Source: Gavia stellata (lineage: Eukaryota; Chordata; Aves; Gaviiformes; Gaviidae). Taken from it: a DNA stretch of 64,000 nucleotides. The stretch is from assembly GCF_030936135.1 (NCBI RefSeq), contig NC_082611.1, positions 9,377,001 through 9,441,000 on the forward strand, written 5' to 3'. Below, in pieces: positions 23,101-61,199 of this stretch (the first letter of the stretch is position 1; every line of letters begins with the position of its first letter). Made by a program: the position numbers and the translations under genes. The notes under the pieces were generated by a model that saw only the letters and a list, made by a program, of their open reading frames with translations, did no database searches and was not told the origin of the DNA.

Positions 23101-23261
23101 AAATTAAAGTACTCAGGTACTTCCTGTTCACAGCGACTGATAGCTTCATAGTCTGAGAAATTCAAAGATGCAAAAGTCTTGTGATACTGATGGAATAATC
23201 TGCGCAGAGTCTGGATGCTCCATGGGGACCGCAACACTTGAAATTCAAGTAAAATCTTCAT
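14192..23261 (-). pseudogene. ACSM4: ACSM copy B, ACSM4-like, all 13 coding exons but frame lost
   Basis: Coding exons are 23061-23261, 22390-22600, 21653-21860, 19613-19756, 19033-19189, 17399-17478, 16766-16889, 16310-16390, 15999-16100, 15519-15639, 15328-15427, 14609-14723 and 14192-14278. Exons 1-9 are open (436 codons) and exon 13 ends in a normal tail with PKTIAGKI, the catalytic-lysine motif, then TAG. Exon 10 is 121 bases against 128 in copy D and exon 12 is 115 against 120. After the first loss the frame meets TAG at 15402-15404, giving about 484 residues without the C-terminal lid domain. The ATP-binding loop reads TSGATGSPK, with Ala where Thr or Ser is required. The exon 12 donor is GCAAGT. 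WNMSDTAWVKAAIGSVF in exon 5 and GMICAN in exon 8 match what I recall of mammalian ACSM4. Either a young pseudogene or, less likely, two assembly errors. Confidence 0.72.
20336..20650. repeat. GC-rich degenerate repeat tract in intron 3 of copy B
   Basis: An island of CAGCC and GGCAG-like words inside an AT-rich intron. Two clear copies of GGAGCCTGACAGC lie at about 20549-20561 and 20573-20585, and variants of CCAGCA recur around them. It looks like a decayed minisatellite. Open frames on both strands here are by-products of the repeat. Confidence 0.5.
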
Positions 23262-28564: not shown

Positions 28565-31500
28565 CTAAGCTCTTCCCCACTCTTTGTTCTTTAGTTTCTT
28601 CCTTTGGATTTTCCCAGATATCATCTTTGGTAGTTGTTGAACAAACTCCAACTCTTCTGTAAAGAGAAATAACAACAACACTTAACAGTTTGACACAGCT
28701 TCATTCCAAGCTGTGTTCCTTTTCTGTGGCAAGCCTGCGATTTTAAAAGCTACGGGCTCTTTTGAGGACGAAGCAGGCAGGCAGCACATGAGTCCCAGTG
28801 CCCATCAAAAAGAACGAGTTACGTTTTAGTGAAACACAGCTCATCAGTTGGGTGACTCAGTAATTCCTCAAATCAGCAGTGGGGGACAATCACATGCCAC
28901 TGAATTTGAGCACAACTTGGACTTCAAAGGGAGCAACTAAGTGGCTTTATTTGGTCGCGTGAAACCCTGGCTAGTGAGGCAGAGCTAGGACTCCTGCCCA
29001 CATACCGAGCAGAAATGTTTTGATTCATCTATTTGTTTCTTCATTTTTTTCCTGGTCAGGTTCAGGTTCTGTATCATTACAAAACTGCACTAACATGTTG
29101 GTGAGTTTGACTGACTCAATGTATAAATTGAGAAGTCTGTGACGGCAGCAGAGAGGTAACCTCCTGAGCAAGACCTTCCCTGCTGTAATGAGCAATTTGC
29201 ACCACTAGAACAGGGCTCAGGGGAAAATCTAGCCACATCTGTTTAAAGCCCAACATAGGCCAGTACCAAAACTCAAGAATCTGTTCCGGGATTGTATTTT
29301 TAAGATTGCTTTAAAAACAATTACCTCCCAAGGTCATAATTATGTTAAAAAACTTACTACGTACATAGAATAAACGGATTACATGAACAAACTGATTACT
29401 TTCCTTCAGACAAAGTGGATTACTTTACCAAAAGTACTTACTCACATTTGAAATCCGAATGTGCTTAAAAAGAAACAGATTCTGAAATAGTGACCAGATT
29501 ACATTTTTCAATATGTTTTTATGATTGCCCTTAAAAATCTAACGCTATTTATAGTTATTCCACTCCAAAAATGGGATTGCGTTTAAAATATCCAACATGT
29601 TTTCACTCTGTTCTGATTGAACCAAGGAGAGAAAAATTAATCTCCCAGAACAAAGCTTGTTACTCAGGAAAAGGGAAGGGAAATTTAAAACCCTGCATCA
29701 CGGTTGTTGGAATGCTATGCAGAAACTGAGGGAAGCCAAAGACAGACAGTGAAGTCTTTTCTGAAGACTTTTGGTGGGAGCTGGTGCATCATTGCTTAGC
29801 CAGGTGGGGCTTATCCTGCTGCTCCTGATGAACTATTCATGTTTAACTCTGAATGTGGATGCCCTGGGGTTCTTTTCAACCGTTCTAGATACTCTGCTAG
29901 TGGAGTTTGATTCCTGCCTCACCTGGAAAGGCTGTAGTACTGTAGTACTGTTTACCTCTGCACAGCCCACTGATACCAGTAATGAGATGTGAAAATCATG
30001 CGGAGATTCTCCTAAACCTGCAGTACCCTTTGAGTCTGATAATCTGCGACCAGTGCAAACTGTAATAACTCTGCTGAGGAACTTGACAGGCTATTGAGTA
30101 TTGCCAGCTAAGGCTTTCACCCACGCTATAGTATTCAGACCCCCTGTAATTGTAACATCCAAGCATTATCTTTCTCTGTTCAGTTAGTCATTCAAAATGT
30201 CTAGAAATACACTTAATATTTTATAACTGTATTTAATTTGTAAATCTGATTCTTTTGTTTAAAATAATTAGGATAAATTTATGCACATAGACACAATTTG
30301 ATTAGGTGAAGGAACATTTCATTTTCCTGTACATAAGCCCAATGAAATCTAATATAGGTTCATCTGTAGTTTCAATGTAAGAAGACACGATCAGATCCTA
30401 TCAGGATAGGCCTATGATGTTCAGCTAAGCAGTATTTACTTATGTAGTTAGGATGGGGTCAGATTCAAAATGTTACATTTCAAAACTTGATTAAAAGAGG
30501 TTCCAGGAGAAAAAAAGCAAAATTCTACTATTTCAAAATATAACCTGATTGTATTTCTAATCTCATTATTAGGTTTGATTAGAGGAGTTTTAATTTTAGG
30601 GTGCATTGCCAGGAACTACTTGTATATTCAGAACTCAGTGATACTTGCCTTTCTCAGGTATTTGTAAGGTGCAGTAACTTTTTTTCACATGCTGAAAAAT
30701 TAATTTTTCAGGATCATGAGATGTAAATTCAGGAGACAGAACAATAAAAGCTTTTACCACCTAAAGGAGAGAGCTACAGTAAGGCAACACTCAGCAATCA
30801 CTAACTTGATGAATAATGTTCAATAGAAAGACTAAGATGAATAACGCAATTTTCTACAATCAAATTTCTTTCAAGCTAGTGGAAATAAAAGTTTCCGAGC
30901 CAGATGCTGGACAACTTTCTGTTTTTTATCACTTATTGAGCTCCACAAACGGGCCTTAAAACTACTCATCGCGAACATAGCGGTATTCCCAGCAGACAGG
31001 AATTCTTCACTGGTGTCTGGGCAGCCACGTCACATCCTCACAGTACTCAAGAAGAGAGGAGACTTAGGTAGGCCACATTTGCTTAATGGTCTTCCTAAGA
31101 ATAGCTAGGGGACGTTACTTGAAAGTATAGGATCTCGTTGGGATTCAGAGAAGCAATTGCCAGAGTTTCAAATTGGCCTAGGTGCCCCTAATTTTTCGGA
31201 AATCAAAAGGAAGTTAGATGCCTCTGTCTCCTCAAATGTATTTGAAAATGCCAGTTTACATCTTTACAATGTTAATACAAGCCAAGATTTCCCTCACAGA
31301 CATAGCTATTTCTCAATATGCATATACATTAGATGTTTTAGGTAGCTCCTAATATCAATGTCCTTACCTCTCCTCTAATGAGGTCTGGGCTGCTGACAGC
31401 AGCTGTTTCAGCTCCTGCTGAATGCTCTATCAGGGCACTCCCTCTCTACTTCAAGCAGCCCAATGCGATACCTAGAGAGGAAGTAAGAATTTGGTGTTAA

Positions 31501-34205
31501 GAAGCAGAGCTGGGCAAATAATTCTGAAATCTTTGGTTAAGTGGTGAATCAAACCCAGTGCTTCTGCGATCAGTTATGATGCCTTCAGAGCAGTGTAAAA
31601 AACCCAGGTTTTCGTAAACTAAGTATATGTGTTTGGAGGGAGGCACTTCAGAAGTCACCAGTGAACTGAAAATACTCCCCAAAATGTGTTTGATTCCTTA
31701 CCACATATCTAGCATAAAGACAGAAAGGCCTTGCTGGTTTGATCTGGAAGGCAAGGTTGCTGCCTTCTCTTGGAGGCAGAATGTTACCATTTTCATCTAC
31801 TACCTAAAATGAAAGAAAGCTCACTCATGAGTTAGGTGATATGCTGCTAAACAGAGACCAGTCCTGCCATGACCTTATCTTATTTCAGACTGAAATAACC
31901 AGAACGCTTTACATTCATCAAAGTACCTGAATATTGTAAGGTGGAACTGCTGTTCCTAATGCACCAGGCTTAGCTTGCATCCCCTCATGAGTTGCACATA
32001 CAATACCCTGTAAAAGAAAATTGAGTTTATGTGGTTTGTTATTCTATACAAATGGATAATTTTGCAGCTAACTAAATGATCTACAAGTCTAGAAGAAATA
32101 ATAGACGTTTGTTTAAAAACATTTTTTCCCGCTGTGATTTTAAAGTCCACTACTCGTTCATCTAATGGTGTAAATCAGCACAGCTGAGAGAAATCCATAC
32201 AACAGCACTGATCTAAGTCAGTGAAAGATTCTACTCAGTGGGAAAAATCCTGTTTTCCTTCAAAGTGGTGCTGCAGATTAAATCAACTGGGCTTGAAATG
32301 CTTCTGATTTAGATTTGCTTTACAGTAATTTGGCCCCATTTGCTTTTCAGAAATGTCCTCTGATTTATATTGGTGTGAGCGAAGCAGCAGTGTTCTTGGC
32401 TACACTGTCATTAGTGTCAGCACTCTACTGATACTTCTTGTAGGGGGACAAGCAAGTCCACAAACTTGGATTTATGGGACTTGGAGTTTTTCCTCATCTG
32501 AACCACTGAAGTGGCACCATGGAACAGTCTGGTCTGAGTTAAAAATTTTCTCCAGGGAACTTCTATCCTAGACATGGGTAATGATATTTCCACATGATAT
32601 ACACTGTATGCGAGTGACTGCAAACATACTGATTCGGTCTGGCCATAACATTCATAGATATCTAACCCCGTCTTATTTTCCTACTCTGCCACCATGGCAG
32701 GGTGGTTTGACTCCCCTCCACTCATGCACTATTGCAGGCTCTTGAATTTGTAACTTCATACGTGTTGGGAAAAAACCCCAAGAAATAAATGCATTAAAAT
32801 CACTGAAGGAAAGAATATGGTTTGAATCTAGGGTCGAGCTGCATACAAGCAGAAATGGCAATTTTGCAGGTCTCTATGAGGATCCCAGCTTCTGAAATTA
32901 TTACACTCTGACAGTGCATGACACAACCTGTGTGGGATGGGACTAGGGGGAAAAGCTCCAGCCTACAACGTGGCTCTGGTGGAATGGATACCTGGTAAGA
33001 TCGTGCTGCAACACCATGTGATAAGTAGTGGGTGATAGGAAACGCAGACAGACTCTGGGCATTAAAACAAAAGAGTTCTATTTGCTGCGAACTTGCTGAA
33101 ATGTCTCGTCGTGGGCACTCCAACAAGCAAACACCAAGCAAAAATCAAAGAGACAGTGACACCATTATTTGGTGGGAACAGAGCATGCCTCAGGACGGTT
33201 TACAGTGGAGAGGGAGATTTCATTACTCATCTTTACTAAGAAAGAATCTGTGCTATTACAAAGAGATGTGACTTGCCCTAGATCAATCCCTATGTCTGTG
33301 CGTGGTACAAAAATTTAATCTATGTTTTTGAATTTTCACTCTACTGAGAGCACTGTCTCCCCTCACGCCTTGCGTTAACAAGGCACTAATGGAACAGCTT
33401 TTGCTTTCAATGACACACAGTTTTTATTCTTACATTTAAAATAGTTGCTGCACCGTACTGTAGCTTGCCATATGAAAAGATGCATGATCCCCGAATCCAT
33501 GGAGAAAATGAGGTGGAAGAGTCAAATTTTATCCAACATGTATCAGACAGACCCCATAGGGCATCAGAGGAATTCAAATTCTTCCAAAACTTGGTAATGA
33601 CGAGAAAAAAATTATAAAGGAATCATTTAATAGGACAAAAGAATTTACAAATGGGGTTAAGTGGATATAGACATTGTGAATTTACATAATCCTCTTTCCA
33701 TTCATTAACAGGCCTGATTCCTTCAGGAATTTCTCAGGAGTGTAGCTTCATGTCACCTAGTAGAAGGGGTTTTCCTTTAGTGTAGTTTTGCTGCAGATCA
33801 TAAGCATGGTAAGGGAAAAAAGACTGTGGAAGTATTTAATCGGAAGCGCACAAAGTCCTCTCTGCTTCCTTCAAATTTCTGTTACTTCATTTACTAAGAA
33901 AAGAATGCTTTCTATCCAGAACTAGTCAGTCTGACCATAATAATAATAATAGACATTGAGGTTTAAAGAATCTAGCTGTGAATGCCTGGCCCCTCATCCA
34001 GCAAATAACCTACCTCTGCACCTGACTGCCTAGGTACCACAGGAAAACAAATACGGATCTTTTATGAAAGCATCATAAAAGGCTGAGATAAACAAAAAAT
34101 GTATCCATATGCTGTATTACCCACTGGAAGTAAGTGTAAATACCCGAATTAAAGAGGCGAAGTGTGTTACCTTCTCCAGTTGAGCCCATTTATGCAAAAT
34201 GTGTG
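28565..34205 (-). pseudogene. ACSM copy C, decayed pseudogene (ACSM5-like in part)
   Basis: Recognisable exon relics, by homology to the other copies, are exon 13 at 28565-28651, 12 at 30649-30760, 11 at 31368-31471, 9 at 31702-31803, 8 at 31927-32007, 7 at 32630-32753, 6 at 32992-33054, 5 at 33434-33590, and only the tail of exon 1 at 34171-34205. Exons 2, 3, 4 and 10 were not found. Exon 7 has two in-frame TAG codons. Exon 6 is 17 bases short, exon 11 is 4 bases long, exon 12 has internal length changes, and the exon 5 acceptor is lost. Exons 8, 9 and most of 13 remain readable: exon 13 still encodes LPKMISGKIQRKK and ends NKEWGRA, closest to copy E. The missing exons include the ATP-binding loop, so no enzyme can be made. 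Confidence 0.9.
33937..33951. repeat. Short (ATA)n microsatellite
   Basis: Five repeats of ATA near the 5' side of pseudogene C, in the stretch where exons 2-4 are missing. Confidence 0.7.
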
Positions 34206-38646: not shown

Positions 38647-41600
38647 CTACATCCGTCCCCACTCTTTGTTTCTTAATTCATTCCTCTTGATCTTCCCAGT
38701 GACTGTCTTTGGCAGCTCTTGGACAAATTCCACCTAAATAAAAAAAGACAGAAAACAATGTAGCATGTTCTACAGACTTGCTTTTCCAAGACTGGCTCTC
38801 AGCATACGTGCAAAACTAAGAGGACCCCTATCAGTAAGAACTGCTTGCCTAAAGGATCAAGTCCAAACCAAATCAAGGCAGCACACTGTGCCACTTGTGA
38901 AACAATTCCTTTGGCTGCCTACACAGCCAAACATCTGTGTAGCTTCCTCCCAGCTAACCAAACTGAGGACTGTAACATGAGTACTGTAACAGAAGGATGA
39001 GTACCTAAATGGTATCAGAGGTCTGAGATGAATGACAAAAATGATCTGAGATGAATAACAAAAAGAAATAAAAAGCGATGTTATTGGCACAAAGTCTTTA
39101 ACGGTCCTTAGTTCCTGTGAGCTCTGCACGAGTGAACTAAGGCAGCGCTAGTAGCTCTTTTCCTGTAGTGCTGGGATTACTCAGAAACACCAAGTGTATC
39201 CTTCTGGGCTTTCCTCTTATTTATTAACTGCGAGGACCAGTAGATTAAAAACTTACTCAGATTCGGTCAGGTACTACCCTAAAGTCACCAGAGAGTGCCT
39301 GCTTGAAGATTAAATACAAAATGGAGAATTATGATTGTGAGCCTGACTTAGAACATGCAGCTCTAACTAGGATATCATATGAAGCCTAGAAATTTTTGAG
39401 ACGTTTAAACAAAAATATTATTTAGGAAAGATTTTCTGGAGCCAGTGCTCTAGCTGAATCTTTACCATTGTCTCTTTCAGGTGAATCGTGAAAATCCAAA
39501 TAGTAATTCTCCTGAGATTTATGGAAGGGTGCCCTGGTTTCAAGTTTCTCCTCAGAAGCATTTACCTTTCTAGGGTATTTATATGGAGCAGTAGTTTTCT
39601 TGACATGCTCCTGCAAGTCACAGGTTAAGCTCTCCAGGTCACTGGATGAAAAGGTCGAGGACAGGACCACAAATGCTTTCACAACCTATTAAGGTAAGGT
39701 CAACAAAAGTGATCTGACACCATCCATTTTTAAGAGCTGATACACAGGTTACCAGTGAGCAGTACTGCTCAGAGTCATGACATGCAAAAGAGAAGAACAG
39801 AGAAATCAGCACAATATAAGAAATGGTTGTGCCCAGCTTCTGTACATGTATGTGCAGAAGAGAAAGTTGCAAGCACGGTTTTCCTGCCCTCATTACAAAG
39901 CAAGAGCATTTGCTCTATCCTTTCAGCGGGGGTCAAGAAGGAGTAATAAGAGGTGTCTCTGCAGAGCTCTCCCTGAAGCTGAGGGACATTTTGTTTCTCT
40001 CTGAAGTTCACACTGAGGACAGTAGGCCCATATCATCCCAGCAGAGGACTGTGCTTTCTCTATATGCGTAGCCCAAGTCTAATGCTAGGGCAGTTATACT
40101 ATACTATAACTTTGGCTACATCAAGACAGCCAGAAAAGACAATTTCAGTGTATAGACAAGTGCTTAATAACAAGGGAAAAGTAAACATCACTGTAATGTT
40201 CTCCACAAAGAAGACCTTCTTGGGATGAAAAGAAACTAAGAAGAGCAAAGGCATGTAAATGGGAAGGTATTTTGCCTGTCACCCCAAGTAGGATTATCCA
40301 CGATGACATAATGGCCTTAGAGCTGTCCATTATTCAGTAAAGTAGGAAATGCTTTATATAGTTATAGATTTAAACAAATATATTGCTTCCCCCACCACTG
40401 TTCAGCATCATTACCTCTCCTCTAAGGGGATCTGGGCTGCTGACAACAGCTGTTTCTGCTACTGCTGGGTGCTCTATCAGGGCACTCTCTACTTCAAATG
40501 GCCCAATGCGATATCTAGGTAAGGAAAGAACAATGTAGGATTTGGTTTAATAATCTGGAAAACCAGTACCAAATGTTTTTTTAATTGTCATACTGAAGAA
40601 AAAAAAAAAACAAACCAAATCAACAAACAACTATAGAAACTTCAGGCAGAATGGGAAAGCTGGCTGTGTTAGAAGGTAGGAGCATTTCCTGGTGGTCATG
40701 TGGTAGAGGACTGCTGGGCTGTGGATACATCTCCATCTCTCCCCTTTCCTTCTGGCTCCTAAGCTGGAGCTCCATTCCACCCTGCAGTACCAGCTTGATG
40801 CCATGTTATGGAACCACATCATACAATATCAAATAGTTTCATTTCAACATGTTAAAAAGAAAATGTTTCAATGCTCTTTGAGTCCGACAGAGACATCCTT
40901 CAATTTTAGTCAAAAAACAAACTAGATTAAAATCCCTCCTCTGCCAATGGAAGTCTTCACTCTTTGTTGAAACAGATGAGATGTTGCAGGGGAAACAGAT
41001 ACAGAGATGCCACTGACATCACCAAGATGATACTGCAGGTCTATGAAAAGCTAATAATAAAAGCAAGTATTCCTAAATCAAGAGGTCAATACATTCATCA
41101 CAGGACTATCATGTCAGAAGCTCACCAGGAACACAACATGTAAGATTATACCATGGCAGATTTAGAAAGGAAGCATGCAAACTGACCCTGAAGAAATGAT
41201 GATGTCATCGTCTCTGCCAATAAACTGAAAATATCCATCTTCATCCATAGTTCCTCTGTCTCCAGTGACATAAAAATCCCCACGTTCACTTTCTGCAGTT
41301 TTCGTAGGGTTATCCTCAAAGTGGTTTACAAACAGTAGTTTAGATTTTGAGCATACATTAGCTATACATTATGCTATAACACACATAATGTTAAATACAC
41401 TGGAACTTAATTTTTCAGTCAAGGATGTTCAAGAATTGTACTGACAATTGCCATAAAATACAATAAAATAGGTTTAAAAACCAAAAACATCTTGATTCTT
41501 TAAAAAAAAGATTAACTCAATCTTGAGCAAATTCTTCTTTTCCGTTTTCTAACATCCACCAATCCAAACAAACAAATTATTCTGGTAATAAATAATAAAC

Positions 41601-44600
41601 TGGTGAAAAATATTCAGCCTTTTGAACCACTATGCAATTGGAGAGATTTTGGGGAGACTGGCGATGGTGAGGAATAAAATAAAGTCCTTACTACATATTC
41701 AGAGAATAAACCAAGTGGTCTTATAGGTTTGCATCTGACAGCAATTTCCCCCTGTTGTCCTGGAGGCAGAATATTAGCATTTTTGTCTATGATCTAGAAT
41801 GAAAAATAACACGTATTTTAGTCCAATGGGAAAAAAAAACCAAACCCAAAACCAACCAACCAAAAAAAAACCCTATAAAAGAATCTAAAGAGCAGCCAAC
41901 AAACCTGAACATCATAAAGGGGAGCTGCCTTCCCCATTGATCCAGGTTTAATCTTCATTCCTTTAAAAACAGAGCAGATTATTCCCTGTAAAAATCAAAA
42001 TCAAACCAAAGTTTTGCAATAGAAAACTGCTACATTCACATTCAATGTATTAAACGTTAATTAAATGTATTTTCTAGAATAATTCCAATGTAAGGAATTA
42101 AGATTCATAGGATCTTATATATGTCAGTGCTGTATGGTACAGATAAGCAAAATCAAGAAACTCCCTGAAAGAATCCCTTTCCATTATCTGTGAAGAATTC
42201 ATGCCCTTTGCTAACCAGTCTTCTTCCTTAGATTCAAACTCTGCCCTCTTGTCTGTCACTGTCACTTGAAATTTGCCTAAGGACATTTATGGAAATATTA
42301 AGAGTACATCTCCTCCCAACAATCCATGTTTCTGGCAGGTTCTGTGAGGAGAGCCATGAAAGGCTGTTCTTTCAGAGGTTATTAGGGGAGGAGATTACTG
42401 CAACATTCACAGAAGCATGAAGGAAGAAACAAGCTGTGTTCTTTGAAAACAAACATTAAAACATCGTAAAGCAAAATGGGATTACAAAGATTTAATAGAA
42501 TATTAACCCTACAGATGTACCGTTTCAGTCTGGCCATATAGTTCATGGATGTCCAGCCCAGTCTTGCTTTTCCACTGCTCCATGACTTCTGGGTTGAGTG
42601 GCTCTCCTCCACTCATGCAGTGCTTCAGGTTCATGAATTTGTAGCTTTACAGGGAGTTAAAAAATGAGAGAAGCAGTACTTAAATCTATTGGGCAAGACA
42701 AGGAGCACGCAGCTATAGACAAATAATACTGGAGAGCTCTTTACTGGGAGAATTAGTCCCATGAAGTGGGGAAGTCAGAGGATTCCTGATGCTTTAGCTC
42801 CTGACACAGCAAGGGTATCAGTCTGTGCTCAACACTATATATATGTGCAGTAGTAGTCAGAGTTAAACACACATGAAAAATAAAGTAAAATTTTTGCTGA
42901 AGTCAGCAGGGATTTAAGGACATGCCTATAACTAACCACAAAGTGATTTGCTGAGCCAGGGCCCTGATTGCTGACCCTCTGCAACAGCCCAAGTGAGAAA
43001 GTGCAAGGGGAGGAAGGAATGGTGGCAGGCAGTGAGAACTGGAGCAGGGAATGATGTACAACTGCCACAACAAGTCACTCCCTCACAGTTACATTGACAC
43101 CTGACACCGACTTTCTAGGATGACAGTCCTTCCCAAAGCATGGACAACTAATCTGGTAATTGAAAATTATTATAAAGAATTTAACAGGCACTCAGTTTCG
43201 TACTCTCAGGGATTTGCTCACAAGTTCAGTAGTGAAAGTGTCAACTTTCTGAGGGAAAACATCAAGTTTCCCTGTTTGATCACAAAACTCAGCAAAACTC
43301 ACAAATTTTGTATGACAGTCTTTTCATGAAGGATATTTTAAACTAAATTACTACCCTATTTGGGTCAAGCAGCTAGATCTGGGAGATCACTAATGTTTAG
43401 CCAGGGTAAATTAAACATTAGTAAATAATTTCTTGACGTACTTGGAGAGATCATTTTGCACCAGCATGCGGAACAATGTTGGAGCACCAACCAGCGTGTC
43501 AATGGGGAATCTGCAGAGAGTCTAGTGAGTTAAACAAGATGGACATATCAAGCTCAGACAAAAAACTGCCTTATGGATGTACAGTTAACAGGTGATATAG
43601 GGGGCAAATGTAGCTCTCCTTTCTATGTAAAAGCACCATACGCGCTCTCTGCTGGGTAAGAAACCCTCCTACAGTTAGTGTAATATGCAGAGATTCACAG
43701 TATATTTGATCAGACAAAATCCCATGCAAACGTGTCTACATGACACCCAGACCGCACAGCCTGGAGCATGGGCAGGATAAGCCTGTCTCTGTCCACATTA
43801 TACGGAGGTTTTCACTTTCATCTTGGCCAGTGTGGGCAGAGAAATGCTTCAGTTTCAGACCACATTAATACCAGCTGATATTACTTTCACAGTCACTAGA
43901 ATGAAAGGCAAGCAATTAGTGCTATGAGCAAAATGTATGAATGAACCACAGGTTTGGCCCCTTCTGTGTACATTAAAAGTGCAAATAGGGGCTTTACACA
44001 ATGGATACAGCATCTCAAACACAACTATGGACACAACCCTCATGAAATCCACAGATGCTGTTAAGAATTTTTTTTTTTGCACCCTTTCTGCAGATTAACA
44101 CATCTCCATGAGTTTTCCCCCTTACATTTAGGATGGCTGCTGATTCAATCTGTGGTAGCTGATGTATAAAGATGCATGATCCAAAAACCCAGGGATCAAA
44201 AACAGATGCCAGTGAAGCTACTATCCATCCTGTGTCTGCTGTGCTCCATATTATATCTGAGGGAGTCAAATCCAACCAGTACCTGATAGAGCAGAAAAAA
44301 ATGAATGAAAAGATAATGAAAAATTTTTACTTAAAAAAATCACCCCAAACCACAAACAAAGAAAACAAAAAACCCAACAAGCCCAAGATTTCTGATAAGA
44401 TACATGGGCAATGGGCACTCTAAATAAGTTTATTTTATGAGCTAGCTCAAGGATAAAAGGGCACCTAACTACATGTTTGCATAAATACACACATGTAGAT
44501 CATACCTATATGATGTCAGTCATAACATAGGATAGAGTAAGGGAAAGAGGAGTCTGAATTTCAACAAAGTGACTTTCCACTAGGTAGAAAGATAGGGCTG

Positions 44601-47407
44601 AAGCAGCAGTATTCATGGATGCTGTGTTGGACACCAGGTATTTCAGTTCTAAGGCTGCTGAGGGACCATGGTGATCTGTGCAACCAACATAAACTCTGCC
44701 TCTGTTCATCTACACATCACAAAGCTTTTTGCAGCCCAAACAGCATGGTGTCTCTTGGTTCTTTGCACAGCTGATGGCTGTCCTTTGAACCACTCTAAAG
44801 AAAGGGCAAGAGATATTCATTGAAAAACGGAAACACTGGGGGTGATCCTACTCCTCTAGAAAACTGCTGGAGTTTCTAGTCTGATTTCAGAGGGAGAAGG
44901 ACTGGGGCTGTACATTGGTATTTCTTATTCAGTAATTTTTCATCAGTTCTATTATACACCTTCAATTATCCCATGTTCAACCAGGCTCAAACCTTTCATA
45001 CCTTTCACTTAAAAGGGGTCTGAAACCAAGACTACCCTGGGAATGTTCAGTCATCTTTGGAGAACCTGTGGTTCCACTGGTAAAGAAGATAATCATTGAG
45101 TCTTGAATCCTTGTTTTGACGCAGGAATGGTAGGCAGATTGGTTTCTTTAAAACAGAGAATGCAGTTGTGACTTCAATGGTTACTTTACACAGGCTTCAG
45201 AATGTAATGAAATGTCACATATTGCTGAACTCCTACCCCAAATAAGCTTCACAGAAGCTTTTCACCAAATTAGACTAAAATAACGTGGAGTTACACTTCC
45301 TCAAAGACAGACTTCCCCTTAAGAAGAACAGGATAGAAACTTCCCAGAACAAACCACTGTTAGTAAACAACTCTGATGTTTACAACCTTAATCTTGGCAT
45401 TTGATGAGTATTTGCAGTTGATGAATACTTGTAAATGAGAACTTGTGGAGAACAGGTCTGCTTTCTGCATCATGACTGCAGTGTCACTAACTTATACTCA
45501 CTTGTACAGGTCAGTGAAGTTCAGCCATCCCTCCCTACTGCCTTTGGACACGATTAGCTTGGTTTTCAGAAACTGACACTCGGATGCCACTGAGTCCACA
45601 GCAGGAGCCAGTGTGTCATCGGTAATGATGCACGTGGCCTTTGATGCCTGGAGTCGATATAATATGTCTTTGGCTGATAATTGGGATATTCCTGGAATTA
45701 AGACAATTCCTGAAAAAGCAATAAAGTTAGTTTGGGACGCCATTTTTTACATCTGATTCTTTTCTAAGAACCTCAACTATTAACTATTCCCAAACTGACC
45801 TCTCAGATGAATTTGCCCTGGCATTCCCCAGCCCAACAGTTATAGTGGAATAATGCAGCTGCTCGTGCTCTCCTGCAAGGAATGAAGCGTGGACCTGTCA
45901 GATGACTTCCATGGCTCTTCCCTGCCTTCTGTCATCTCCGTGCCTGCTGCACAGGCCACCTGTCCTACAGCACCTAGTGCAAATACTTCAGGACTGCCTG
46001 TGTAATTGGTAGCTAGGCCACTCACTAGCTTATTACATTACTTCTCCTTTATAAACCATATAAATTCTTGATCCTCTCAACCAATTTGCATTAACCAATT
46101 TTACCAGTCTCAGATATGCTCACTGACCTGCTCGCATGCAAGCCACATTCACCAGCCACCATTCTGGGATTCGTGGCAGGATCACAACAATTCTGTCCCC
46201 CTTCTGCAGTCCACATACTTTAGTCAGCACATTGGCCACTTTCCGAGACAGGAACCCCAGCTCCTCAAAGCTCCACTTCACTTCTCCTTTTCCATTTGTC
46301 CACCAAAAGGCAGGGTTCGATGGTCTCTTTCCAGCCTACAAAACATAGGGATTCAAAACCAAAACATTTTCTTCTGAAAGACCATGAAATTATAATGCAC
46401 AAATATCTGCAAATTATGCAAGATCTGAGTATTTCACAACTGGCATATAAGCTATTATTTTTCCTTTGTCCTTAATGGATCAAGATTTGCTATGGATCAA
46501 GCTCAGATATTCCCAATAAATTCTCTTCTTCTGAACCTGAAACGTTTACCAGCCCAATTGTCTCCAGACATAAGTCCTAATCTGGATCCTATTTCAGTTT
46601 AAGCCTTATGCTGAGCATTAACGCTCCTACAAAATAACAGATGAAGTAAAGTACTTCACATAATACTCCTGACATTCTGGATGGAGTTGTGGAATACTAT
46701 TAAACAGAAGCAGCACAGGCAGAAGACAATATAAAACAAGAGGACCACACAGTATCCCAGGACTTTTTCTAGTCTGATTGCTTAGGCAGAGTGGAGTTAC
46801 GTGGTCTCTAACTACAGGGCATCTGGACAAATGCAGAATCCACTTTGGAACAAGGCAATTAAACATTTGTGGGAGAATTTTCCCTAGCATACTATGTTAC
46901 TGTTACGTTTCCTGTATTTTTATGATGTAAGTATCTAATATTATAGTATGCAGAAGGAATAAGCACAGCCATTCCAAAATTAAATCGAAGTCAAAAGGGA
47001 CTTAACATTGCTTTTTCTACCTACATAGGGAGCACCAAGAATCAGAGACACTTTTAAAATAAAGCAAGGAAGAAAGAGATTTTGTATAATTTCCTAATGC
47101 AAATTGGTTTTGGCAACTGATTTTTTTGATAAAGAAAAACCCCCAACTTATTTCAAATGAAATTTCAAGTTAAAGTATCTCATCTGCACAACAAAAGATC
47201 ATCTACCTTTTCAATCTCAGACCATTTGTCCAGTACATCACTTGCAAAGTTAAAGTACTTTGGTATTTCCTGTTCACCCCGCCTGACAGACTCATACTGT
47301 GAATACACATCAGAAGCAAGCAGCCTGGGGTGTCCATGGAAAGTCCTATTAGGAGGCTTCAGAGTCCACAAGGATTTTGGAGTCTGTAATTTAAACAACA
47401 ACTTCAT
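38647..47407 (-). CDS. ACSM gene D, intact medium-chain acyl-CoA synthetase
   Basis: Thirteen coding exons: 47207-47407, 46128-46335, 45502-45709, 45002-45145, 44126-44282, 43442-43521, 42521-42644, 41905-41985, 41692-41793, 41187-41314, 40415-40514, 39566-39685 and 38647-38733. They join in frame to 579 codons plus TAG, a normal length for the family, with a GT-AG intron at every junction. Motifs in order: [15 protein letters not shown] (exon 2), ATP-binding loop TSGTTGSPK (exon 4), [11 protein letters not shown]-type loop and YGQTET (exon 7), [11 protein letters not shown] and the hinge GRDDD (exon 10), [14 protein letters not shown] (exons 10-11), APYKYPRK (exon 12) and [15 protein letters not shown] with the catalytic Lys (exon 13). 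A good acceptor (TCTACAG) 24 bases upstream of the ATG, exon start at 47431, implies an untranslated first exon further right. The N-terminus and C-terminus recall ACSM4, but the middle diverges, so I give no symbol. It is the only complete intact ACSM gene here. Confidence 0.9.
41831..41873. repeat. A/C-rich simple tract in intron 8 of gene D
   Basis: Runs of A broken by CC and CCC on the plus strand, between exons 8 and 9 of gene D. Simple sequence with no coding content. Confidence 0.6.
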
Positions 47408-50503: not shown

Positions 50504-53500
50504 TTATACTCTTCCCCACTCTTTGTTCCTTAGAACCTTTCTCTGGATTTTCCCAGTAGTCATCTTTGGTAGATCCTGGACGAACTCCACCTGAAAGGCA
50601 AAAATGCTCACTTTTAGCCAAATACATTCTGATTAATCTCCCAGGTGCAAGGAAAGACACACTTCCATTATGGCTGGGGTAAAAAAATGGGAAGCTGCAC
50701 AGCTTGGGGCTGGGACGGTGAAATTCCTTATTACACACCTTTGCTGACTGCACTGGCAGTACTTGCAGGGACAAGTACCACAATCCTGAAGAGATGAGTG
50801 CTTCAGCTGTCAGGACAGGGAGTTACAGGTGTCTTTCCTGGTTGTAAGGGATGGATTCCAGCCCCTCTGATGCCAGCAGGAATTTCCCCTTTGCTTTGGC
50901 TGAGACTCTGAACAGAACTCAAGGGAGGAATTGGTAAGAGCTGAATGCCTTGCCCATTTGAGTCGCTGTGAAAACCCTAGTATTCCATGAAAGGAAGACT
51001 GGACCCTGATAAAGATAAGTTACATAACCATTTCCTCCCTTTGGGTCCTTTCTAGCACATACAGTGAACCCAAGCCTACAGCTGCAACAGACCCTGTAAT
51101 TTACTTTTATTTTATTTAACTATGGTTGGAGTATTTGTCAGAATGCAGTTCAAAAGAAGCTGGGGCAGGACAAAAACTGTTCCATTTTTGATACAATTAG
51201 AAGTCCTGTCTTTTTGTGGTGTACTTACTTTCCTCGGATACTTGTAAGGTGCAGTCACCTTCTTGACATGTTGCTGAAGCTCATGAGTTAATTCTTCTGG
51301 ATCATGTGATACAAAAGCAGGAGCTAAAACAATGAAGGCTTTGACTACCTGTGTCGCAGAAGTTAAGGGACTCCATTAACTTCCAGACGTGGGAATGAAG
51401 GGATATATTTGTTGCCAAAACTGAGTATCAAAATTCAGAAATAAAAAAATTTGATTTTTTTCTTTAATTTCCCTTTTCATTGGCTGTTTATTACAGAATG
51501 CAATGTTATGAAGGGCATATTCTGCAGCATAGGATTTTTTGCCATTTTTCCAATTTTTTTTTCTTAACTTTATACACTACTAAAATATCAAAAAGTTGTA
51601 AAACAGAAAAAAAGACAGCTGAAAAACTCACCCTGGGGCTCAAAGAAAGGTTGCAAAGTTGAAAAATATCAAAAGAAAAATTAAACACTCTGGATATCAT
51701 TGCCACCATGTGCTTAGTGACAAAAAGAAAAATAATCCAAATTCTGTTTCTTAGACAAAAAGATGCCACAGCAAGTGTGAAGAGCCAAACTTTTTTTCCA
51801 CCTCAAACCCCGCAAATAGGGAAATAATTCTGAAATTCTAAGATCTGTCAAGATATGGCTCTAAAATTTTTTAAACCCATTTTAATTTCAAAAATCAGCA
51901 ACATTTAATTCGAAGGAAGCCTAGTACATATAGGGAACTTGATGCTTAGAATAAAGTGCATTTCTTTCTATATCTTTGTTTTTTCTTTTTACCTCCCCTC
52001 GAATTGGATCAGGACTGCTGACAACAGCTGACTCTGAGACTGCAGGGTGTTGTATTAATGCACTTTCGACTTCAAATGGGCCAATACGATACCTAGGAGA
52101 AAATGCGTATACGACAGCCATAGCAAGCTAGCCATTCAATTGGTGTTTCCAGATTGAATTTTAACAGGCAAATGAGCAAATCTAAAAGCAACTGACTTAC
52201 CCAGAATTAATTATATCATCAACTCTTCCAACAAACCAGACATATCCTTCTTCATCCATAATCCCTCTGTCCCCAGTGACATAAAAATTTCCACACACAG
52301 AGGCAGCAGTTTTCTCTGCATTATCCTGACAACAATCGAACATTTAAAACAATGTATCTCATTGTTAGTGAAATGTAATGGATTTACTTTGCAGTGGTGC
52401 TAAAAATGATCAAGACAGTTTTTCAAGTTGTTCTAAAAATAAGTACGTTCAATACTATTTTATGTTTTCAATTTAAAAAAAACAGAGCCACATTAATTAG
52501 CAGGTTTGTGGTGGAAATATGTGAGAGGTGGAAAAGAGCATTTGTGTATATATGGACTCATGTTCTAGGGAAAAAAGGCTATGCTCTATCAAAATGCCCA
52601 TCCATCAGAGCAAATTACTAAAATGTATAACCCACTCTCTTCAGAGACATCACTTATCATTGCAGGGGGTTGCCACAATAACCTCCTGTCAATGGAAACT
52701 TTTTACCCCTAACCTTCAAGACCAAAACACAAGTGAGGTGACCTACAGGGAAAACTTCATTATCTGCATTGATCTAGTGGGTCTAGATTATACAGGAAAA
52801 ACACACTGACAACAGAAGACATAATGAAAAATTGAAGTAATAGTACTGAACCAAAAGTAGTTTTTTATCACATAATGAGCAATCGCTTTGTGCAAGTTGT
52901 TGTTTGAGGATACTACAAATATCCAAATATTATGGGGGTTCAGAAGAGGATTAAACACATAGATAGGTTCCCCAAAGCTTATTCAACATCATAGTTCAAA
53001 TGCAGTGGAGAATATCTTTGTATTTGCCTGATTCTAGTGTTTTCTTAAGTATGTACTACAACTCAGCACCACCACAGATGGAATACTAGCTTAGATGGAC
53101 CTTTGACCCGAACCAAGATGGCCATTCTTCTGACACGTTTTTTAAGCCTGTTCTGCCTTCAGTGGGTAGAGCATTCCCATTCGACTAGTAATGTTAGATT
53201 ACGTATGCCATTTGCACAAGCCATATGATCATCTACACTTGAGGGTTTTGTGCTGGAGCTCGCCTTTGTGCTGTTGATCTTCTGCACACTGTCTGTGTGA
53301 CAGGCAACTGTACAAAGACTTTCTCTGACACCAGAGATACATGCATGCTGGAATGTGTAACTTTTAAAGATTTAAAAGATCAATCTGTGGGTACCTCTGA
53401 CAGCGGTATAAGGGAATGAGATACCTGTGCTCTTCGGAAAGCCTCCCTGAGCTTCCGACGTATTAGAGTAGCCTTTACGGGCTTCCTTCATGAATCCCTA

Positions 53501-56500
53501 ACCAAAGATAGGAGTGGAATGGAAGGGAAAGGAGTGATGCACTGAACGTGAAGCCCATGCCAACTGCCAGGTACAGGTCTGGAATGAGGTACCCACTGGT
53601 TCATGTTGCATCTTGAAGTTATACTCTGCCAGTCAGTCTGTTCCAGGAGTAGCAGAACAATATACTGATCAGGCTTAAAGCCCTCAAGCAACCTAGTGAG
53701 ACCTAGTGAAGATCCTGGCTGAAATGCTGCTCCTTGGATAAGTCAACAGAACTTTGCCCTGGGTCTCTCTTGAGCTTCCTAGCAGGCAACAGCCAGACCA
53801 ACTCAGACTTACCAAGTACTCAGAGAACAGACAGAATGGTCGCTTCGGTTGAACTCGGACAGCAATGTTGCCGCCTTCTCCTGCAGGCAGAACAGCCCCA
53901 TGATCATCTATGATCTGCAGAAAGGACATATCATTATTGCTTGGATTAGCTCAGTGAAATATCTGTTATAGCACAGCGCAGGACAGAGAAGGGACACAGA
54001 CAGCATTCCCTTACTCTTTTACCCACAACTGCAGCTGAGCTCAGATGTGACATATCAACATACCTGCACATCATAAGGGGGAACAGCTTTTCCCAAAGAG
54101 CCAGGTTTAATTCCCATTCCTTTCATATTGGCACATATTGTCACCTGCATAACAGATTTTTTTTTTTTAAATTTGTGCAACGTCTTGTAGACTTTATTAT
54201 TGTTTGCATTAGGCATGACACCTCTTCATGACTTGTGACAAGAGCTGAATCAGGACTAAAGCACTGTGGTTCTCCAGCACATCAGAGTGGCATTTCAGGT
54301 CAGCCCTGTGGAATGAGGCTGCTTGTGCTCAGTCTTGAGCCAGTGACTTCTTCTGCAAACACTTGAATTTGCAAGACAGCAGATGTGAAATTATTACAGA
54401 TCTTATTTCAATAATGGGACAATTAATTTGGGACCGTATCAAGGGGAAGAGGAGAGAATGCCTGAAATCTGACTCTTAATAACTTCGTTAACGTTCACTT
54501 ACAGAGAAGTCTGGGATGTGAACTGATTTAATATTTTTCATTAAAACGTCGGACAGGCCAAATTGATACCCAGAGCAAATTATTTTTTCTTAGTTTTACC
54601 TTTTAAGTAAAGATGATGAAGGGTTCTACTAAAAGTTATTTGATCTGAGGTAATCTTTGGCATGGTTTTTGTGGGGGGCTGAACTCTGTAGTCATAGTAT
54701 TTCCTATAAACATTAAAATATGCAGCTAGTTGATTTTGGAACTATATAATCACAATTAGATACAGCCTCTTTTCAAAAAAGTTCATTTAAATGATCCTTA
54801 CTTTTTCCATTGATTTATCAAGCACATTGTGACTCTGGTATTGTTACCTTTGAAAGGGCATACTGCAAGAATTAATGCAAATGTACTGTTTCAGTCTGGC
54901 CATAACCCTCATAGATATCCAGCCCTGTCTGGATTTTCCACTTTGCCATCACTTCAGGATTGAGCGGTTCCCCTCCAGATAGACAGTGTTTCAGAGTCAT
55001 GAACTTGTAACTTGGGAGGAATAGGAAATGAAATAATTTTCTTAACTTCTGAAAAGAGCGGTGAATGGTCTTAACTGAGCAGCCTCCCTCAACTTTCAAA
55101 GTAAGTACACATAAAACTTCACAAGTTACTTGGGAAATTACAATAATAATCCTGCTACAGTCCTGGATTGGACTCTTAGATTGCTCGTGTTACCACTGAG
55201 GATAATGTGGTTTACCTCTGTGTCACTGGAAGCAGGGGTTTTTTTCTGGAAAAAGAGTGAGCAAAGGTGTTTTCTTGGAAGAGCTGACAAGAAAGGAGAA
55301 ATCTGAACAAGCACATCAGATATTCCTGGAAAGCTGAGTTATGTGCCCACATTCAAGATCAAATAAGACATTGAGAATTTTCTAGAGCAAAAGGAAGGCT
55401 GAATAGGAGGCTGAGGTCTCTGCTAAATCAGGGATGGCTTTTGTCAGGATGAAAGACCTGTGTGAGAAGAATAAGTACCTTACTGAAGGTGTGAAAACTC
55501 CTTACAAATCACACTAACTACTTCTCATAAGCTGATTATTTCACAGTGTAACAAACTGGTGGGAACAGCTGACAAATAACTCTTAGCATGTGAAAGTCCT
55601 CTAACTGTTCACTTCATTCTCAAGTATATAGGAACAACTCCACTGTAGTCCAGTAATTCCCTGATCCAGTGCTGCATGAAACCTTGACTTAAATTTAAGT
55701 CTGAACCGTAAGTTCAGATGAAGTGACAACTCAAAAAAATCTCACTTGTTTCCTCTGTGCTGCCGGAATGGCCTAAGGTGTGACTAGTTATTGTCATATT
55801 TCAGAACATAGCTTTCTCTTCTGAGAGCAAATTTTGCTAATTAGATTTCCTTTAATTGAAAAAAATTGAGCAACATAAGGAACTAAACAGCCAGAGCTGT
55901 CACAACATTACATCCCAGACTCTCTCTGCTAACCCTGCAACAGACAGATGTGCAGTACCTGCTCAAATCATGTTGGACCAGCATGCAGTAGGCAGTGGGA
56001 GCAGTGCAAAAGGCAGTGATGGGGTATCTTGAGAGAGTCTAGAAAAACAGAAAGTTATTTTGTTGAGAAGAAAACGTAATGGTGGGTCTGAACTTGTAAA
56101 TGTGCAGGTGATTAACAAAACTTACGTGCTCAAATGTCTGCAAAATGAAAACCATAGAAATGCAACATACATTTAACACAGAGAATGACTATGGCTTAGA
56201 GACTATGAATCCTGACTGCGGAGTGGCTGTACCAGTCAGTCCCACTGCTGTAGAAAATATAGCACTTTCTGTCCAACAAAAATCATTTATGTAAATAAAC
56301 AATCACCGAGAGTAGTAGTTCCAGTTAAGATTGTTTTCTGCTTCCCAAGGCGACCGTGTCCCAGGCTCGAGACTAAGTGACAACAGTGAACTAGACCAAA
56401 ACTTTTCCAATTTTATTCTTGGGAAAGTCTGGGTCTCCTCTCCACACAAGAGGTCAATGTTGAGAAGAACAGGCCAGCTGCCTGGTTTTGCAAAATGGCA

Positions 56501-59500
56501 GAGAGGAGGAATAGTCATTCTGGCAACTCATTGAAAATTCAGGATAGCAGGGCCCTGATTCAGGTCTACGGCATACTCTGATTACTGGCCCATGCTCACC
56601 CTGAGCCCAAAGCAGCTGGAAGACCATACCTAAAGTGAGCTTTAGGCTAAGCATTGGACAAGACAGCAGCGATCCTAAGTTATTTTTATCCTGCATCTTT
56701 CACCACATCTCCTCTACACTGTAGCCATGTCACATGGCCTACCCAGGAGGGAAAACACTTGCTCCTCTAGCTTACTAGGCACCAATGGGAGCGATGATTG
56801 CTTGGGATGTGGGAAGTACTATGCCTGCTGCTACAGAGCAGTGGGTACCCTGGCACTGGAGCCCAGCTTGTATGCTTCATTTATGCAAAATGAAAATAAA
56901 ACTCACAGTATAAAATGTTAACGCTTACCTCTGCAATAACTGCTGGTTTAAATTTTGGCATATTGTGTACAAAGACGCATGATCCACAGATCCATGGTCC
57001 AAAGACACTGCTCCAAGCTGATTTTACCCAGCCAGTATCAGAGGTATTCCACATTATATCTGAAGGAGTCAAGTTCATCCAGTACCTGATGATAAAGCAG
57101 AGACAAAAAAAATGCTTCATAGAGTGAGAGAGACGCAGGCATAGGTCACAGCATAATTAAAGGAAAGGGCAGGAGGCATCCATTAGAACATGTCGTATCA
57201 GCAAGTGGGGCTCTTTGGAAAGTCTGTAAGAGTTGAAGAGAATCTTAAACATTCTCTTATTTCCCTTCATTCCCTCCTGTTTAACATTTCCAGCATTTGC
57301 TTTTCTCCTGAACAGTGCAAAACATCCTTGGCTTGAGTTGCAGAATCTGGATCTAAATCAAAAACCAAACAGATTGTTTGGAGCAGGCTTTCCCCACCTT
57401 GCGGATTAGAGACATCAACTAAATCACATCTTATTTCCCTAGGAAACTAATCAAATTACTTCTACGGACTCTATACCACCAACTTCCAATTCAGAATGCC
57501 TTGGGAAATGTATTCTTTGATTTTCATTAAATTTCTCACTCCTGGGGAAACATAAATAAAAGATGTTCAATGAAAGCAAATCAGACCAAGCCCCAGATTC
57601 AAACTGAACTGTAACTTCCAAGGTATAATGCTATGGTCCAAGGTTGCTTTGGTTCTCAAGGAAGGTTTACATAATACTAAAGCACTAAACTTTATCTGGT
57701 TTTGCTATAAGGAGGCTATCCTTACTGCCACTCCATAGTCAGCCCTCTGAGCGACAGAACACTGTGTTTGATGATCTCAACTGAGTCTTCAAGAAGCTTT
57801 TAATAATGAGGGTTTCACCGTGAGAGGGGAAAGGTGAGGAAGAAGCAAGATCCTACAACTCATGAAATGCATACATTTACTGGAGTTTTTATGGTCACTT
57901 TTTCAATTTAATTGTGATCATGTCACTTAATCAGGACACTGGGAGCAACTGTGAGGTATACCTGCCACTGGTTGCAAATCCGATGCCATAACTGCTGTGG
58001 GACTGCACCACCATTTTTGGAGAGCCTGTACTTCCACTACTAAAATAGATCAGCATTGGGTCTTGACTCCTTGTCTTGACACATTTATGGTCAGCAGATG
58101 TCACCCTTCAGAAGAAACAGTGTATGACGGTTACCACACGTAGTTCTTCATGAAAGAAGCAGTATTTTTTAATGTTTAGGCGATAAACAGGAAAAAGGCT
58201 CAAAGCTATACGATCTCACTAAATAAATAGTTGCATCAGATACCACAGGTAAGAGATAGAGATCACATTTTGCTAGTCACAAGTGTGCTCTGTATGCCAT
58301 AACTTTCAAGATGTGAGCACCTACAGCATATTCCAGTGACTTTGTCTACCACTACTTGACAAGGGCACTCAAGGTGCTTGTTACGGAACGGCAGGTAGAT
58401 ACAAAACCAACTTCTGCCTCAACACATACCATCTCCCAGCCTGAAGTCAATGGGTGCCATATTCAGGCCATAACGCCAAGTAAGGTGGTCTTAGACATGT
58501 ATTGTGCCATTTATGTCAAGAGACTGATGAATAATTCAGAATGTCTGGGCTAACAAGATAGTCAAGGGAAGAAATAACTGATGCCATGTTAGCTGAGCAC
58601 CGAGAACTGGCAATGGGTATCTTCTTATTGAATTCCAAGAGGTGTTAAGCTGGGCTCTAGAAGACAAGCACAAAACAACTGCAAAATTAGTACTCTGTGT
58701 GCTTGTCTTGTGATGACAGTAGAAGTAGAGAGCTTTTAAAAGCTGGGAGGCTGCTGAGTAAGGAGAAGCTGAAATACCTGAATACAGCTCCCAAAAAATG
58801 TGTTGGAGGGATTTGTACTTAATGCAGTGATTACAGCGAGTTGGCAGAGGGATGCAAAAATGTAACTCATTTGTATTTTGGAAATTAGTACGAAAATTCA
58901 GCAATGTCACCTGACTGATACAGCTTCCTTCACCTCACAGGGATGATGGTAAAACATCTGGATACTCACACAAAGAGTTCTTTGAGGTTCAGCCACCCAT
59001 CTCTGCTCCCTTTGGCTACAATAAGTTTGCTTTTCAGAAACTGGCAGTCAGGCATGACAGATTCCACTGCAGGTGCCAGTGTATCATCGGTAATGATGCA
59101 CTTGGCCTTCGAAGCCTGGAGTCGGTATAAAATGTCTTTGGCTGTTAATTGGGATGTTCCTGGAATAAAGACAATTCCTGGAAAAAAGCAACAAGCAATT
59201 TAGAAAATTGACCATTTTTCTTTATTATGTTCACAGCACATGACCCCGGCCATAGAAAAGCTGAGCTACTTGCCAAAAACTTATTCTTTGAGAAACAAGA
59301 GTCAAGTACAACTCATGTTTGAAGGCACAGCTTGGGTGAATTTGTGGCCTAGGAATGACCTGGGATCATCTGGCTCTGAAAGACCTCCAAACCCTGCAAC
59401 ACTGATGTTGAGTTTTGTGTCACCCATATTAAAGGTACCTTGATCATGAATAAGATCTAGATTTCGAGTGTTTTTTGAGCACTTCCTTCACAATTCGTAA

Positions 59501-61199
59501 CTCAGGAAGGAAGTAGTGAGATTATCATCCCCTTAATTTGGATCCCCAAATATAATTTGGATTATATTTACATCTGGAATAAAGCCATTATTCATTTCAA
59601 TAAGGAATTAATACCTCTGATATCAGATAAATAGATTGAGGTCAGGTAGCTCACATACATTGCTCAGTCAACATATCCCTCAAGCTTGGATTCATTTTGT
59701 AATGTGAACAAACGTAAGTTTGGATACTGAGTACAATGTGACTGAAATCACATTTTTTTTGGGGGGTGGAGGGATGAGGGGGTTGTGGGAATCAATTTAG
59801 TGCATTTCTATACCTCTTTTTCCCCGAGGATTTCAATAGACTTGACCTACAGATTGATTTCAGTCTTCTTGCACCTTCAGAGGTGTCTACCGAGTTTTAC
59901 AATTGGGAAACTGAGGCATTGAGATACTGAATGATATTCTCACATCATAGTCCAGAAAATCTTGGGTACGTTAGAATTGGATTCCCTGAGTCTTAGCCCC
60001 ATTTACAACATGCAAGAATCACAGAGCTTAAAAGTGGGACAAAAATACTTGATCACATCCCTCTTGATGCTGAATTGTTCCATCATGGATGTTTAGCAGT
60101 CTAAAAATGCAATCAGTCAAATTCTTCCTAAGAATTTGCAAAACTGTTAACAGCAGAGCAAAAAAATATTGTATTGAATTATTAACCAGTGTCGTCATAT
60201 AACTTACTGCGCTAAACCTGTCCACACTGATAATGTATCTGGTCAAATCTGGCCTTAGATTGTAACCATTCAACCTTCACTGGCTTCAACTGACGATGCT
60301 GTTTAACTGGACCATATCTGTTCAGCACCTAGTACAATGTTGCTTTGGTTCCTCTGTGGATGCTGCCAATTCTCCTTCTGTGCAAAAGCTGAATTGTACA
60401 AGGCACAGCAGCATATTCCTGTTTACATTTTTTTCAAATTAATTTAGAGTATTTTTCGTACCTTCTATTTATTCTCTTTCTGCATCCAAGAGATCAGTAA
60501 GGTTACTCACCTGTTCACATACAGGCTACATTCAGTAGCCACCATTCTGGAACACGAGGCAGAACTGCCATAACCCTGTCTCCTCTCTGCAAACCACATG
60601 CCTCAGAAAGTATATTAGCTGCTTTCCTAGACAGAAATCCCAACTCTTCAAAGCTCCACTTCACCTCCTCTCCCTCATCATTAACCCACCAAAAAGCTGG
60701 ATTTGCTGGTTGTCTTCCATCCTACAATGCAACAGAAGATAGTAAAATAAGATGACAATCCTTAAAAGGTTTAATTTCAATCTAAACTCCACACTAAGAA
60801 AATCATCCCCGGCAACTAGTCTCTTAAAGTGACACCTATATTTTTGACAAAGAAAATAAAATAGTGCATTCTACTCCGCAGCTAATATTATTCAGTATTC
60901 ATCAGGAAAACTGATTTCTATCATCTGAATTTCTATCATCTGAATTTCTATCATCTGAGATTTGTTCCAATGCCTATGAAATAAAAGGAAAATACTACCT
61001 TTTCCAGTTGCGACCACTCATCTAAGACATCACTTGCAAAGTTGAAATATTCTGGCAGTTCCTTTTTACACTGGTTTATAGAGTCATAATACGAAATAAT
61101 CTGAGATGTAAGAAGCCTTTTGCATCCATGGAATAATCTGCAAGGCGACCTGAGAATCCGCAAACACTGAGGAATCCATGACTTAATAAATGTTCTCAT
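50504..61199 (-). pseudogene. ACSM copy E, ACSM5-like, 13 exons with one nonsense codon
   Basis: Coding exons: 60999-61199, 60511-60721, 58970-59177, 57962-58105, 56929-57085, 55959-56038, 54887-55010, 54064-54144, 53813-53914, 52201-52325, 51993-52092, 51229-51348 and 50504-50590. They join in phase to 580 codons including the final TAA, but exon 2 has TGA at 60515-60517 (codon 136), where copies B and D have CGA and gene A has AGA. A CpG-type C-to-T change explains it. Everything downstream stays open: ATP loop SSGSTGSPK (altered but inside the signature), [30 protein letters not shown] and LPKMTTGKIQRK. The start ATG at 61199 gives 67 codons in exon 1, as in B and D; an in-frame ATG at 61244 is also open. 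The PFC and FIVL.PAF.SHDPE stretches resemble ACSM5. This may be a recent pseudogene, a null allele of the sampled individual, or a base error. Confidence 0.75.
59761..59789 (+). other. Candidate G-quadruplex motif in intron 2 of copy E
   Basis: G runs of 6, 3, 5 and 3 bases are separated by three four-base loops (TGGA, ATGA, TTGT), a canonical quadruplex pattern on the plus strand, which is the template strand of copy E. It directly follows a run of T. Folding is inferred from the pattern only. Confidence 0.55.

Follow-up and report, generated by a model that had tools for sequence, protein, structure and literature searches.

Probable recent loss of a tandem ACSM paralogue in Gavia stellata

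Copy E, a 13-exon medium-chain acyl-CoA synthetase (ACSM) gene at 50504–61199 on the minus strand, is probably a tandem paralogue that spent most of its history as a working enzyme before being disabled recently, and is now either a fixed pseudogene or a segregating null allele. Its reading frame is interrupted at codon 136 by a TGA in exon 2, and motif A8, in exon 10, is one codon short. Positions are given within the window, the 64,000-nucleotide stretch of Gavia stellata DNA analysed here (C18:9377001–9441000 of an assembly of 1.32 Gb in 1185 contigs).

A cluster of five ACSM-like copies

The window holds five ACSM-like copies, labelled A–E, all on the minus strand. Copies A (352–5506, running on into the left flank to -3796) and D (38647–47407) read as intact, copy B (14192–23261) is a pseudogene and copy C (28565–33590) is a decayed remnant. 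B has lost 7 bp from exon 10 and 5 bp from exon 12. In C, exons 1–4 and 10 are unrecognisable (exon 2 specifically was not recovered by an ACSM exon search), two in-frame stops both fall in exon 7, exons 6, 11 and 12 have lengths that shift the frame, and the AG before exon 5 is missing. With the D protein as query, no further ACSM exons were found in the 30 kb flanking the window on the left or the 20 kb flanking it on the right. The same protein gave at least 50 matches in the genome; among those listed, 48 lie on C18, with one weak match each on C20 and C37.

Two observations concern the surroundings of the cluster. Between 8600 and 10500, long stop-free frames overlap densely on both strands, the longest of 249 amino acids (9214–9963), perhaps reflecting a GC-rich stretch. 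A globin search of the assembly returned 10 matches, including three on C18, of which two read as alpha-type, and four on C1, which read as beta-type. The alpha-type genes, L120 and L121 (C18:16611130–16614672), share a contig with the ACSM cluster, in agreement with the human arrangement on 16p. When one alpha and one beta exon were compared with the PDB, the six highest-ranking alpha entries were fused double alpha chains, which score twice; 3a59 was the best single alpha chain, and 3eok and 3a59 were the best beta entries. Both are bird hemoglobins (3a59 from ostrich, 3eok from duck), in good support of an avian source.

Gene structure of copy E

The rebuilt coding sequence of E is 1740 nt long, or 580 codons including the terminal stop, with 12 GT-AG introns; the only in-frame stops are the premature TGA and then the terminal TAA. 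This model reproduces the sequence-only reading, which had described 13 exons in frame over 580 codons save for one TGA. On the minus strand, the coding part of exon 1 occupies 60999–61199, with the ATG at 61197–61199, followed by exon 2 (60511–60721, 211 nt, donor CAG/gtgagt), exon 3 (58970–59177), exon 4 (57962–58105), which encodes the P-loop FSSGSTGSPK, exon 5 (56929–57085) and exon 6 (55959–56038). Exon 7 (54887–55010) encodes GYGQTET and ends at a weak donor, ACA/gtacat. The remaining exons are exon 8 (54064–54144), exon 9 (53813–53914), exon 10 (52201–52325), exon 11 (51993–52092), exon 12 (51229–51348) and exon 13 (50504–50590), which carries the terminal TAA. A rough ranking of the splice sites in copies A, B, D and E by consensus frequencies puts the exon 7 donor of E last among the donors and the exon 8 acceptor of E last in pyrimidine content. 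In the same ranking the exon 10 acceptor of copy D (41315–41317), a GAG, has the lowest score at position -3 of any acceptor.

The identification of E as an ACSM gene holds. Pfam places AMP-binding (PF00501) in both pieces on either side of the stop, residues 1–135 and 137 onward, and AMP-binding_C (PF13193) in the second piece, from residue 137 onward. Comparison with solved structures gives ACSM2A as the closest relative, and exons 9–13 match the human protein with an E-value of 2.6e-77. Human ACSM2A, a member of the ANL superfamily (PDB 2vze/2wd9), shares both Pfam domains with E; the differences are the stop at codon 136, an A8 motif shorter by one codon, R325C and T561M. Copy D, which serves as the intact yardstick, matches residues 31–577 of human ACSM2A with an E-value of 4.3e-227.

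A nonsense codon in exon 2

The premature TGA lies at 60515–60517 on the minus strand, where the plus strand reads TCA, with 4 nt between it and the exon 2 donor. The 68 residues directly upstream, in the same frame, match human ACSM2A with an E-value of 8.5e-25. Because of this match, and because exon 3 continues in phase, the frame of exon 2 is the one given here; a different frame, on which the sequence-only reading had made its claim depend, is ruled out. At the homologous position B and D have CGA and A has AGA, so that a single C-to-T change at a CpG accounts for the TGA, as had been proposed. Among 79 prokaryotic relatives with a full frame (the best 80 of 555, less one partial sequence), the residue at this position is lysine in 49 and arginine in 30.

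In the sequenced haplotype, Arg136 would thus have passed from CGA to TGA by CpG transition. The predicted product is a fragment of 135 residues without the later adenylation motifs, and the mRNA would be subject to nonsense-mediated decay, which is expected since 11 exon junctions lie downstream of the TGA, 10 of them beyond the one 4 nt away.

By its structure E resembles a duplicated pseudogene: the introns are kept, paralogues stand in tandem with it and it carries a disabling lesion relative to them. It resembles recently disabled duplicated (non-processed) pseudogenes in particular in its introns, its CpG nonsense codon, its low dN/dS and its pseudogene neighbours, and we see no categorical difference from that class.

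Loss of a codon in motif A8

Exon 10 of E measures 125 nt, as against 128 nt in A and D. The missing codon falls at 52201–52208 (minus strand), within motif A8, where E reads DDIINS-GYRIG, A reads DDIINSAGYRIG and human ACSM2A reads DDIINSSGYRIG. The core of the motif is INSAG in A, IISSG in D and INSSG in human ACSM2A. Between the second aspartate and the glycine there are 4 residues in E and 5 in all 79 relatives; the length of A8 is constant in copies A, B and D and in human ACSM2A too, and the one-residue gap of E also appears against five solved chains, which represent four proteins, human ACSM2A being present twice. E therefore departs from the DD-x5-G spacing of ACSM and medium-chain acyl-CoA synthetases and, by that spacing, would be a gene derived from the ACSM family rather than a working member of it. 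As a separate observation, A8 of copy B carries a Gly-to-Arg change, although this pseudogene retains a low dN/dS.

In Methanosarcina Macs, a Gly459-Tyr460 pair is part of the CoA pocket; a Tyr460Ala protein was insoluble, and Gly459Ala had little effect (PMC10455477). By our own alignment, the glycine beside the A8 gap of E is the predicted equivalent of Gly459.

The claim of a single lesion in an otherwise complete gene therefore needs dividing. There is indeed one premature stop, but the gene is not quite complete otherwise, as the A8 codon is missing and R325 and T561 are changed. A codon lost in frame slips past a check for an open frame, and one stop codon is not the whole story in E.

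Other conserved residues and CpG sites

Four further codons of E, all read on the minus strand, differ from conserved or shared residues. Codon 325 (55985–55987) is TGC, for cysteine, where A, B and D have a CGN arginine codon and all 79 relatives have arginine. Codon 447 (52293–52295) is TGT, also cysteine, in place of the CGT arginine of A, B and D, at a position that is variable in the prokaryotic relatives. Codon 561 (50561–50563) encodes methionine where 79 of 79 relatives have threonine, in the PKT of the A10 motif, and codon 241 (58003–58005) encodes glutamine (H241Q) where histidine is found in 78 of the 79, a count that carries a bias, since this histidine was present in one of the two search seeds.

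E does not stand out by the number of such changes. Private departures at universal columns number 0/48 in A, 3/51 in B, 0/48 in D, 2/50 in E and 2/50 in human ACSM2A, and with one exception among the relatives allowed they become 0/63, 4/67, 1/64, 3/66 and 5/68, respectively. At the 89 columns that are near-invariant in the 79 relatives, E departs 10 times, A 5, B 14, D 13 and the human protein 16. In an alignment of the five sequences A, B, D, E and human, positions at which one departs from a residue shared by the remaining four number 18 for E, 19 for A, 19 for B, 13 for D and 54 for human; the E row of this alignment was one residue short, at the split codon. Private gaps at otherwise fully occupied columns also occur once in D and once in human ACSM2A, in both cases outside A8. 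Given the similar scores of human ACSM2A and D, we did not accept a tally of altered conserved positions as proving that E is damaged; substitutions of this kind, or a gap of one residue, are not in themselves proof of loss. Since D and human ACSM2A each have a private gap of their own, the additional changes in E (the A8 codon, R325C and T561M) are suspicious rather than proven damage. What marks E out is the position of its gap, in A8.

We also followed, for each copy, the CpG sites shared by two or more of the other three, restricting the count to sites that were kept or had turned to TpG or CpA. E has kept 3 of 7 and lost 4. Three of these losses are CGN-to-TGN changes at codons that encode arginine in A, B and D, namely stop 136, Cys 325 and Cys 447. 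Elsewhere the losses are 2/7 in A, 1/5 in B and 0/5 in D, all of them small numbers.

Selection and the age of the loss

Codon models were fitted to an alignment of A, B, D and E that comprised 537 codon columns once the first 44 and the terminal stop had been set aside. Any codon interrupted by a gap or a stop counted as missing data (0 in A, 6 in B, 1 in D and 3 in E). Across the six fits in which the E branch was free, on three topologies, its omega lies between 0.135 and 0.149, and fixing it at 1 worsens the fit by 41 to 47 lnL units (41 on the best topology). When the branches were freed singly on that topology, omega was 0.144 for E, below the rest (2 delta lnL 4.9), 0.205 for A, 0.187 for B and 0.351 for D (2 delta lnL 9.1). 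Among the four comparable copies, dN/dS is thus lowest in E. Relaxed selection, with dN/dS moving towards 1 as in a pseudogene, is not what E displays (omega 0.14, neutral tail 0).

Copy D presents a pattern of its own. Its dN/dS is raised, at 0.30–0.35 compared with roughly 0.18 elsewhere (2 delta lnL 7.6–9.1), and the neutral tail that suits it best lies near 0.067 per site (+5.2 lnL), which could reflect either relaxed or adaptive change.

The neutral tail comes from a model in which a copy evolves at the common omega and then neutrally. For E the best tail is 0, and lnL falls by 0.94 at 0.010, by 2.03 at 0.020 and by 3.74 at 0.033 substitutions per site. The control, copy B, is a clear pseudogene and also fits best at 0, with a drop of 1.39 lnL at 0.020; the test therefore bounds the age of a loss and neither proves function nor excludes loss. 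Counting lesions, with one disabling lesion, gives E a tail of 0.0034–0.0042 per site with an upper bound of 0.016–0.020, assuming a nonsense fraction of 4.5%, indel-to-substitution ratios of 0.08 and 0.12, and 48 splice bases.

Birds accumulate 2–3 substitutions per thousand sites per million years. At this rate both bounds place the loss of E less than roughly 10 million years ago, and the point estimate is about 1–2 million years, figures that are limited by the use of four saturated paralogues and a shared omega. If the constraint on E was above average, the tail could by our own estimate be about twice as long. The best-fitting tail of 0 and the upper bound from the lesion count support a recent loss of E and agree with the earlier suggestion that it is very recent.

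Discussion

The preferred reading is that E is a tandem paralogue that was long functional and was then disabled by the nonsense codon, with the A8 codon loss and the changes at other conserved sites as further damage that may already have been there or may have accumulated afterwards. Whether the TGA is fixed divides this reading. That the sequenced bird carries TGA while others carry CGA, with a working allele still common, is a sub-case to which we give a substantial but minority share. The zero neutral tail of E fits it, and the assembly offers no second haplotype for comparison: a 301-base query over exon 2 of E recovered itself and, at 73%, D, with no other match. The A8 codon loss and the other changes suggest damage beyond one fresh allele. 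A stepwise order of events, in which the A8 deletion came first and removed the CoA-ligating half-reaction, another selected role was kept and the nonsense codon arrived late, seems quite improbable; the role retained by E might in that case have been acyl-adenylate formation or partnership with its neighbours.

Two further explanations would leave E a working gene. A base error in the assembly at 60515–60517 would make the real codon arginine and E a functional gene with an unusual A8 loop. The strongest purifying signal among the comparable copies would also fit such a gene, as would the best fit at zero tail and the single premature stop in 580 codons, and private one-residue gaps elsewhere are tolerated in copy D and human ACSM2A. 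Yet C-to-T at a CpG is the commonest natural change, a type that a random error need not be; two more arginine codons shared by A, B and D carry the same change in E; A8 is short by a codon; and at an assumed Q40–Q50 only 0.17–0.017 errors are expected per 1740-nt coding sequence, about 4–5% of which would give nonsense. We regard an error as unlikely, if somewhat less so than the stepwise order. Least probable of all is that the protein is still made by bypassing the TGA through alternative splicing, stop read-through or recoding, although the low omega of E fits a protein under selection. Enumerated in silico, four internal GT sites of exon 2 are in phase; two of them, GTG/GTTTGC and CTC/GTGTTC, skip the TGA and leave the frame open, and two give stops, as at the cryptic donor CCT/GTATGT, where the stop is recreated at the junction. 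The two open sites would delete 28 or 15 codons and by eye, unscored, lie far from the donor consensus, whereas the normal CAG/gtgagt is the best-scoring donor of our ranking. Joining exon 1 to a later exon stays in frame only for exons 6, 8, 9, 10, 12 and 13, at a cost of at least 240 codons. The enumeration of splice bypass and exon skipping thus yielded nothing credible, and selenocysteine at the TGA was likewise rejected, as nothing in the window scores as high as the gathering threshold of any Rfam family.

Among the papers listed by literature searches, titles and the opening lines of abstracts contained no report of ACSM pseudogenes in birds. We read the event in E as gene loss of an ordinary kind, recent in geological terms, with nothing exotic about it. 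The ACSM cluster is shrinking: B and C are broken, E is freshly disabled, D has a raised dN/dS and A reads as intact. Copy E is thereby a bounded example of ongoing gene loss in a tandem family of fatty-acid-activating enzymes.
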